From an uncultured Clostridia bacterium (GTDB lineage: Bacteria > Bacillota > Clostridia > Christensenellales > HGM11417): 64,000 nucleotides of DNA. The stretch lies in the NCBI GenBank assembly GCA_944332455.1, contig CALVJY010000005.1:1-64000 (forward strand). Direction: 5' to 3'. Shown here in pieces: positions 45,951 through 47,069 of the stretch. A model generated the notes under the pieces. The model made no database searches. It saw only the letters and a program-made list of their open reading frames with translations, and was not told the origin of the DNA. Positions within the stretch are counted from its first letter, which is position 1, and every line of letters starts with the position of its first letter. The position numbers and the translations under genes are program-made.

Positions 45951-47069
45951 TCACGCCGTTACATCTTGCGCTTGATAATGATTCTGAAGTAAGGCGTAAT
46001 TCTTGTCTGTCTGTCTGTCTGTCTGTCTGTCTGTCTGTCTGTCTGTCTGTCTGTCTGTCTGTCTGTCTGTCTGTCTGTCTGTCAAAAGATTATCGCATGG
46101 TTTTACTGTATATGTCAAGTCTTTTTCATCATTTCCTTTGCGAAATTTTATAATTTCGAATTGTTCTGGGTTGTGTTTATCAAGATAAGTAATCGGAACT
46201 CCTATATCCTCAAAGTAGTCACAGGGAATATCTGCAGTTTTGTCAACATTGATTGCATCATAGTTGTCATAATGTGGATATTCCTGTTCATTCCCATAAT
46301 AATGCTTGTAGAGAACTAGTTTTTCATGACGTTTGTCATGATCCAGATTTGTATACCAAATACTGGCAACGTTTATTAGTTTTGCACCATTTACAGTTTT
46401 TTCTGTTTTCCCATCGTAGTCAGCATAAAACCACATTCCTCCAGAGAACCCCCTGTACCCTGTCCAAAGTTTATTCTCTTTGATAAGAGGAAATATTTCC
46501 TTATATGTAATTGCATTTTTGTTCCCAATAATAAGGAATTTTTTTTCGTATTTCACCAATTGTGCAATGTATTCTCGGAAAAGTGAAAAAGGAGGATTTG
46601 TAACAACTACATCGGCTTGCTTCAAATATTCAATACATTCCTCCGATCTAAAATCTCCATTACCCTTTAACTTTTTTACACCTCTTTTTTTTGAAAAAAG
46701 CAAAGCCTTAATATCATTATCTGACACCCCTCTCCCATTTTCCATGGGAATCTCCTGGACATCAATAACATATCCATTCCCTCCAATAACAGGAGCATCT
46801 TCTTCATCAAATAAAGTCAATTGGCGTCCAACTACTCGTGATGCATAGTACGAAGTGCATATCAACCTCTTTAAGCCCAAGTAGTTAAAATTTTTCAAAA
46901 AAAACTTACAGAAATTACTCTCAAATGGGTCATCACAATTACATAGTACAGTAGCTCCTTTAAAGTGTTTTTCATAATGATTTAATTCGTTTTGAATATC
47001 CTCATACTGCGTATAGAATTCACTCTGCTTCGCTATATTGGCCGCATGTAAATTTGTATTCTTCGCCAT
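45951..47069 (-). CDS. EcoRI-family adenine methyltransferase, phase-variable C-terminus
   Basis: This 372-aa protein belongs to the EcoRI-type DNA adenine methyltransferases, with catalytic NPPF at residues 158-161, GGMWFYADYDG near 210 and GVPITYLDKHNPEQFEIIKF at 290-309. Residues 330-355 are DRQT repeats encoded by 20 copies of GACA. With 20 copies the protein ends in DKNYALLQNHYQAQDVTA, which does not look like a family tail. With 19 or 22 copies it would end RITPYFRIIIKRKM, a family-like end at 45,959. With 18 or 21 it would run into a second C-terminal module to 45,769. The present state may be inactive or altered in specificity. A DUF262-HNH nuclease follows. AAGGTGAAAGGA precedes the start. 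Confidence 0.88.
   Translation of the reverse strand: MAKNTNLHAANIAKQSEFYTQYEDIQNELNHYEKHFKGATVLCNCDDPFESNFCKFFLKNFNYLGLKRLICTSYYASRVVGRQLTLFDEEDAPVIGGNGYVIDVQEIPMENGRGVSDNDIKALLFSKKRGVKKLKGNGDFRSEECIEYLKQADVVVTNPPFSLFREYIAQLVKYEKKFLIIGNKNAITYKEIFPLIKENKLWTGYRGFSGGMWFYADYDGKTEKTVNGAKLINVASIWYTNLDHDKRHEKLVLYKHYYGNEQEYPHYDNYDAINVDKTADIPCDYFEDIGVPITYLDKHNPEQFEIIKFRKGNDEKDLTYTVKPCDNLLTDRQTDRQTDRQTDRQTDRQTDRQTDKNYALLQNHYQAQDVTA
46004..46083 (+). repeat. Tetranucleotide tract, (TGTC)20, in the methyltransferase gene
   Basis: There are exactly 20 perfect units of TGTC on the plus strand (GACA on the coding strand), 80 bp with no interruption. Such tracts change length by slipped-strand mispairing, and each unit gained or lost shifts the frame. 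The tract lies after the catalytic region, so it changes only the C-terminus. Confidence 0.95.

Follow-up and report, generated by a model that had tools for sequence, protein, structure and literature searches.

A GACA repeat proposed to switch C-terminal modules in an EcoRI-type adenine methyltransferase of a Type II-like restriction-modification locus

Introduction

What happens to a DNA methyltransferase when a tetranucleotide repeat near the 3' end of its gene gains or loses a unit: is the enzyme turned off, or does it receive another C-terminus and, with it, another target? Phase-variable methyltransferases are described in a 2026 review as ON/OFF switches (a mode common in Type III and limited in Type II) or as changes of specificity based on hsdS (PMC13076061). 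The window, a stretch of 64,000 nucleotides from an uncultured Clostridia bacterium, holds an EcoRI-family (PF13651) adenine DNA methyltransferase gene with such a repeat. A sequence-only reading had proposed a three-way switch that exchanges C-terminal modules rather than a plain ON/OFF switch. In this study, we aimed to evaluate this proposal by simulation of the reading frames and by comparison with related loci.

Materials and methods

The alternative C-termini were derived by simulating the GACA copy number; the copy number modulo 3 decides the ending. In the comparison of pN and pS between loci, each module was counted once per locus. The synonymous codon shuffling test was limited to three-module loci, because it is tautological for two-module loci, in which the longest frame is open by definition. 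The core tree was built from 143 rows by a quick method, with the C-terminal module excluded; its deep forks are weak and counts of state changes depend on it. Methyltransferases partnered with R.EcoRI were counted when their C-terminus was readable and uninterrupted.

Results

The repeat leads into three C-termini. The methyltransferase gene lies on the minus strand (45951..47069) and, as assembled with 20 repeat copies, encodes 372 aa. The protein matches PF13651 (E=1.5e-126; 422.8 bits against a gathering cut-off of 26.4; profile positions 1-312 of 345) and the PADLOC model MTase_II (E=1.3e-112), and its catalytic NPPF motif is in the sequence; it is predicted to methylate a specific DNA site. 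The coding strand contains 20.0 perfect copies of GACA (46083..46004, minus strand), as had been noted earlier and as TRF and direct reading agree. No other tract of (GACA)5 or longer occurs in the 2.35 Mb assembly; this one is the proposed frame selector, although its exact copy number may be wrong in a draft. A coding repeat whose unit is not a multiple of three is one mark of an SSR phase-variable methyltransferase. With 17, 20 or 23 simulated copies, the tail is ...DKNYALLQNHYQAQDVTA and the stop ends at 45951; with 16, 19 or 22 copies, it is ...RQTRITPYFRIIIKRKM and the stop ends at 45959; with 15, 18, 21 or 24 copies, it is ...RCNGVMGVPITFLDKYNPDQFE...YKRLFIKRKM and the stop ends at 45769. 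All three ends fall where the sequence-only reading had placed them. Three different C-termini chosen by frame behind a 3' repeat are the arrangement known as C-terminal phase variation (Snyder et al.).

The repeat had been thought to follow the catalytic domain. It does lie past the PF13651 core, but it splits the C-terminal module: PF13651 is aligned to position 312 of 345 upstream of the tract, and the 61-aa piece downstream corresponds to positions 279-345. The first part of module A (GVPITYLDKHNPEQFEIIKFRKGNDEKDLTYTVKPCDNLLT, 46084..46202, minus strand) is of the M.EcoRI module type by comparison with relatives and with M.EcoRI itself. Its last part (RITPYFRIIIKRKM and a stop, 45959..46003, minus strand), which the frame simulation reads with 16, 19 or 22 copies, could be aligned to the M.EcoRI terminus. 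The stop at 45,959 was thus placed correctly, but what it closes is more than a short tail, namely the native end of module A and an M.EcoRI-type C-terminus. Module B (RCNGVMGVPITFLDKYNPDQFEIIGATESEGKGFSKGLWNADSGIAQPIVRGERKYKRLFIKRKM and a stop, 45769..45966, minus strand), read with 15, 18 or 21 copies, was recognised by PF13651 (positions 279-345, E=1.2e-11) and by comparison with relatives, and its first codons share bases with the stop codon that closes module A (AGATGTAACGG). The present 20-copy frame reaches a TGA (45951..45953, minus strand; located by frame simulation and comparison with relatives) before any complete module, and this state is probably OFF, with no working enzyme. The proposed three-way switch therefore keeps its three ends, but only two of its three states carry a module in this genome.

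The C-terminal unit of the family begins with GVPITFLDKYNPxQFEI, continues with a segment variable in sequence and length, and closes with a terminal strand YxRIxIKRK. In a structural model of a single-module relative (L061, pLDDT 83), it forms a strand, a helix, a strand, a variable loop and the terminal strand. The loop spans 25-71 residues, the widest length range among the regions compared. The window repeat lies within this loop in module A; module B provides another complete unit. A core region at about residues 187-225 of L061 is likewise hypervariable and may share in target recognition. An AlphaFold model of L032 in the B state (pLDDT 71) gave module B no confident fold and did not discriminate between the GVPIT units as the one that docks, probably because single-module rows drag the alignment to module A plus the last strand. 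A Foldseek search of the PDB returned no match below E 0.001, and no solved relative was found by sequence. In the main switching clade, the first module (e.g. window 46170-46220) reads DYFExxGVPITYLDKHNP, whereas single-module enzymes mostly have DYDGVMGVPITFLDKYNP; the first unit of this clade is possibly weakened and displaceable by the second module.

The arrangement recurs among relatives. Among the loci fetched, 25, the window's included and mostly from Clostridia, carry a simple repeat at the same site. The units are 1, 2, 4 or 5 bases long and never 3 or 6: GACA/ACAG in L001, L005, L006, L027, L033, L034, L037, L038, L048, L050, L053, L155 and L156; AG/GA in L028, L029, L030, L032, L042, L044 and L110; and AGCAG in L026, AACGG in L031, AGAAG in L025, AGCA in L035 and poly-G in L047. 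Three frames lead to three different modules in 12 loci (L005, L006, L026, L027, L032, L033, L034, with the third module cut short, L035, L038, L042, L155 and L156), and the third frame of these three-module relatives is open across module B into module C. In L029, L030, L031 and L044, the module A end occurs in two versions, one in each of two frames, and module B is read in the third; L047 (Bacteroidaceae) packs three ends behind G10. A frame that stops soon after the tract, ahead of any module, is found in two further loci (L028 and L110), both assembled in this blank state like the window (three cases only). The assembled states of the relatives are scattered over all frames. Tract length differs between L033 (13 copies) and L034 (6 copies), which are relatives, one genome per species, with the same module set and 82% identical DNA. 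Seven contigs end inside the tract (L025, L037, L048, L050, L053, L155 and L156), and assemblers evidently struggle there.

Several loci were observed with related anatomy. L154, whose core is 39% identical, has three modules in three frames and, in place of a clean repeat, only a degenerate CAGCT-like one, which is either a decayed tract or a sign of some other means of frame choice. On the viral contig of L110 (IMGVR_UViG_3300035499_000756), (GA)13 and two alternative ends are followed directly by a second EcoRI-type methyltransferase gene. L044 and L046, with 98% identical DNA, are distinguished by a 218-base deletion, in which the first half of module A is lost together with most of the AG tract; this is either a real deletion or an assembly collapse. 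Invertible or inverted module copies were rejected, every extra module being on the same strand. L169, a Helicobacter phage methyltransferase with a two-piece annotation, was also rejected as a switch; it has a frame break but no repeat there.

Chance does not readily give such frames. A canonical module end is reached in 53 of 57 downstream frames (19 loci), compared with 0 of 192 frame-shifted readings of single-module relatives, and in 15 of the 19 loci all three frames end canonically. Across module B, the C frame of the 12 three-module loci contains 0 stops, against about 16 expected under synonymous codon shuffling; multiplied over the loci, the probabilities give about 5e-13, a figure that overstates independence because these loci are related. 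For four module types, the window's module B among them, pN/pS is 0.13-0.22, and pN is below pS in 63 of 63 pairs. The window's module B, compared with its relatives, has pN of 0.09-0.17 and pS of 0.66-0.96, and 43-51 of its 59 residues are conserved. Purifying selection at the protein level therefore acts on modules that the assembled state leaves out of frame.

Modules and cores have separate histories. The switch trait needs 10 state changes on the core tree of 143 rows and the KFRKG module type needs 14. Apart from a main clade, mostly Clostridia, switching loci stand separately as L006, L042 (Saccharibacteria), L047, L053, L110 (viral contig) and L154. Modules of the ATESEG type, to which module B belongs, are found on cores 44-79% identical to the window's. 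These counts, taken from a quick tree with weak deep forks, indicate that the switch arose repeatedly and that modules move between cores.

Module A resembles the C-terminus of an enzyme of known pairing. The genuine E. coli M.EcoRI beside R.EcoRI (L171) ends FELIKFRKGVDEKDLSINGKCPYFRILIKNKRLQK, and module A of the window, FEIIKFRKGNDEKDLTYTVKPC...repeat...TPYFRIIIKRKM, aligns with it on both flanks of the repeat. The KFRKG (module A) type is carried by 11 of 11 R.EcoRI-partnered methyltransferases, from E. coli, Klebsiella, Leuconostoc, Staphylococcus, Rhodococcus, Bacteroidota and others, and by 7 of 104 others, all seven paired with GmrSD_N-HNH (Fisher 4e-11, uncorrected for phylogeny). Descent confounds this association, because the R.EcoRI partners fall into a single clade of the core tree. 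The tie to R.EcoRI partners links the module to GAATTC and predicts that the target changes on switching, with GAATTC or a close site as the predicted target of state A.

The partner nuclease has a GmrSD_N/DUF262 part and an HNH part, with DGQQR and HNH motifs (44585..45709, minus strand; PADLOC REase_II, E=9.1e-129). Its gene lies directly downstream and starts about 60 bases past module B. Nuclease and methyltransferase adjoin and match the PADLOC Type II models REase_II and MTase_II, as the genes of a Type II restriction-modification system do. The C-terminal domain of the nuclease is an HNH domain (PF01844/PF14279) with no DUF1524 match, unlike the DUF262 plus DUF1524 composition of Type IV GmrSD, and a single-chain PF13651 methyltransferase with a GmrSD_N-HNH nuclease is not the hsdM/hsdS/hsdR organisation of Type I. 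Together, the two genes make up an A+T-rich island (33-42% GC, compared with 55-69% in the surroundings); the locus was therefore probably acquired horizontally. Nucleases 79-84% identical to the window's stand beside quite different module sets, and nuclease similarity showed no significant excess with module type once core identity was accounted for (permutation p 0.16).

Other features were observed in loci of EcoRI-type methyltransferases. In Neisseria dentiae (L092), a single-module enzyme is preceded by (CCGCA)12 at 2881-2940, with 60 bases between the tract and the start of the gene; this tract is a candidate for a conventional expression switch in this family. Several Clostridia-type loci and one Bacteroidaceae locus (L114 1034-1043, L115 951-959, L122 968-976 and L047 2699-2708) have a poly-C run of 9-10, located about 280-550 bases upstream of where the methyltransferase begins. 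The EcoRI-type methyltransferase of L058, L060, L066 and L102 shares one frame of about 702 aa with a putative C5-cytosine methyltransferase, an apparent fusion of two methyltransferases (L058 was read directly). Tandem EcoRI-type genes in L039 and L040 (3025-3611 and 4088-4674) have a stretch of 590 bases in common at 82-84% identity, and its two copies could recombine.

Discussion

An SSR-driven switch of modules, acting on the EcoRI-type DNA adenine methyltransferase of a Type II-like restriction-modification locus, is the likely explanation. In the proposed mechanism, slipped-strand mispairing would add or remove GACA units and the ribosome would leave the repeat in another reading frame. 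State A would complete the M.EcoRI-type C-terminus, with the repeat serving as a linker in the variable loop. In state B, the rest of module A would be bypassed and the complete, different module B appended. In states B and C, the repeat, together with the first half of module A, would become a tether for the appended whole module. The third frame in the window genome would stop early and give an enzyme that lacks a full module (probably OFF); in relatives, it would usually read on to module C or another valid end. Each state is expected to be translated into its own protein. That modules are exchanged, rather than an enzyme merely switched off, had been the central proposal of the sequence-only reading, and the relatives strongly support it.

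The C-terminal module probably contributes to the choice of DNA target, and each state would then methylate a different set of sites. This view has indirect support: the module repertoire is hypervariable and exchanged between cores, as for a target recognition domain, and the module-A type is tied to R.EcoRI partners. A Type II nuclease with a fixed target of its own would be dangerous beside a methyltransferase whose target changes. Similar nucleases are found with different modules; the nuclease may therefore borrow the specificity of the methyltransferase, by analogy with Type I and III systems. Alternatively, it may sense modification, like DUF262-containing relatives such as SspE, BrxU and GmrSD (PMC12707154; PMC9646914). 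More broadly, and as a tentative possibility, these loci could be widespread, repeatedly evolved three-state specificity switches. Three target-recognition modules would lie in overlapping frames, most loci would have no OFF state, and slippage would re-target methylation and also restriction, because the GmrSD_N-HNH nuclease would take its specificity from the methyltransferase.

Other explanations must be weighed against a module switch. A plain ON/OFF switch, in which the module A frame (19 or 22 copies) alone is active, the B and 20-copy readings are inactive and module B is a decaying duplicate, would belong to the commonest known mode of SSR methyltransferases (PMC7394358). It would suit the module-less frame of the present assembly and the blank frames in which L028 and L110 are assembled. 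A decaying duplicate would hardly keep the conservation and the low pN relative to pS found for module B, nor would the C frame be expected to stay free of stops over it. Moreover, 15 of 19 loci have a canonical end in every frame and therefore no OFF state. We regard this explanation as quite unlikely. The modules might instead alter activity, stability, oligomerisation or docking of the partner nuclease, rather than the DNA target. The terminal piece is a small strand-helix-strand unit round a variable loop, the Foldseek search gave no PDB match below E 0.001, and the structural models are of protein alone, all of which would accommodate such a role. Against it stand the length range of the segment, the widest of the regions compared, the swapping of modules between cores in the manner of a target recognition domain, and the single module type that always accompanies R.EcoRI; on balance, this alternative is unlikely.

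The usefulness of all frames would fit equally well with ribosomal or transcriptional slippage, by which all three proteins would be mixed in every cell and the repeat would be a frameshift signal rather than a heritable switch. The unit and sequence of the repeat, however, vary by locus (GACA, AG, AGCAG, AACGG and poly-G), tract lengths differ among relatives, and tetra- and pentanucleotide runs are not known to be slippery; such slippage is very improbable. The contigs that break in the tract and the nearly identical L044 and L046, which differ by a deletion there, would be expected of an assembly artefact or of pseudogene decay, but the same anatomy appears in many independent assemblies at scattered positions of the tree and the silent modules are under selection, so that artefact or decay is scarcely credible.

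If the module switch is real, a single slippage event would exchange the epigenetic target rather than merely turn it off, and three frames would store alternative modules; GAATTC would be methylated in state A and a different motif in state B. Phase-variable specificity would extend from the S subunits of Type I systems to single-chain Type II methyltransferases, mostly of uncultured gut bacteria. The locus would offer a clean test case for a Type II-like nuclease that borrows the specificity of its methyltransferase and an unusually clear example of overlapping frames held open for function.

A search of the literature, with bioRxiv and most subscription journals outside its coverage, found neither recognition modules packed into alternative frames and selected by a repeat in an EcoRI-type or any other single-chain methyltransferase, nor a single-chain Type II methyltransferase that exchanges modules across three frames. 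The nearest known system is NgoAV of Neisseria gonorrhoeae, in which the hsdS1/hsdS2 poly-G tract gives a truncated HsdS that recognises GCAN8TGC or a fused HsdS that recognises GCAN7STCA (PMC9577141, PMC7394358). In both cases a 3' tract in a specificity-determining gene shifts the frame, and the DNA target, which changes in NgoAV, would change here. NgoAV, however, is a Type I S subunit with one homopolymer and two useful states that arise by fusion with the next gene, and an extra G gives no third module, whereas here the overlapping frames that follow a repeat of 1-, 2-, 4- or 5-base units provide a single-chain Type II methyltransferase with two or three complete modules. The window switch would thus work like NgoAV, with the frame setting the methylated motif, but it is not a member of the NgoAV system. 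C-terminal phase variation, in which 3'-end repeats give three alternative C-termini, is known from Helicobacter canadensis (PMC2823697) and the gonococcus (PMC5320596). Those tails are not reported as homologous modules and some are fusions with the next gene, whereas the frames here lead to homologous modules under selection. Type III mod genes (phasevarions) likewise have tetranucleotide repeats in an adenine methyltransferase gene that adjoins a nuclease gene, but there the tract is an ON/OFF switch and target domains vary by allele, whereas here the tract would pick the module. Inverting hsdS loci of Type I systems (e.g. SpnIII) also exchange recognition modules at random and give several methylation states; they do so by recombination between inverted repeats, whereas slippage and reading frame alone would act here. 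M.EcoRI belongs to the same methyltransferase family and shares the KFRKGxDEKDL...PYFRI type of module A, but it has one fixed module and R.EcoRI as its partner, whereas the methyltransferase described here has a module that appears switchable and a GmrSD_N-HNH partner.
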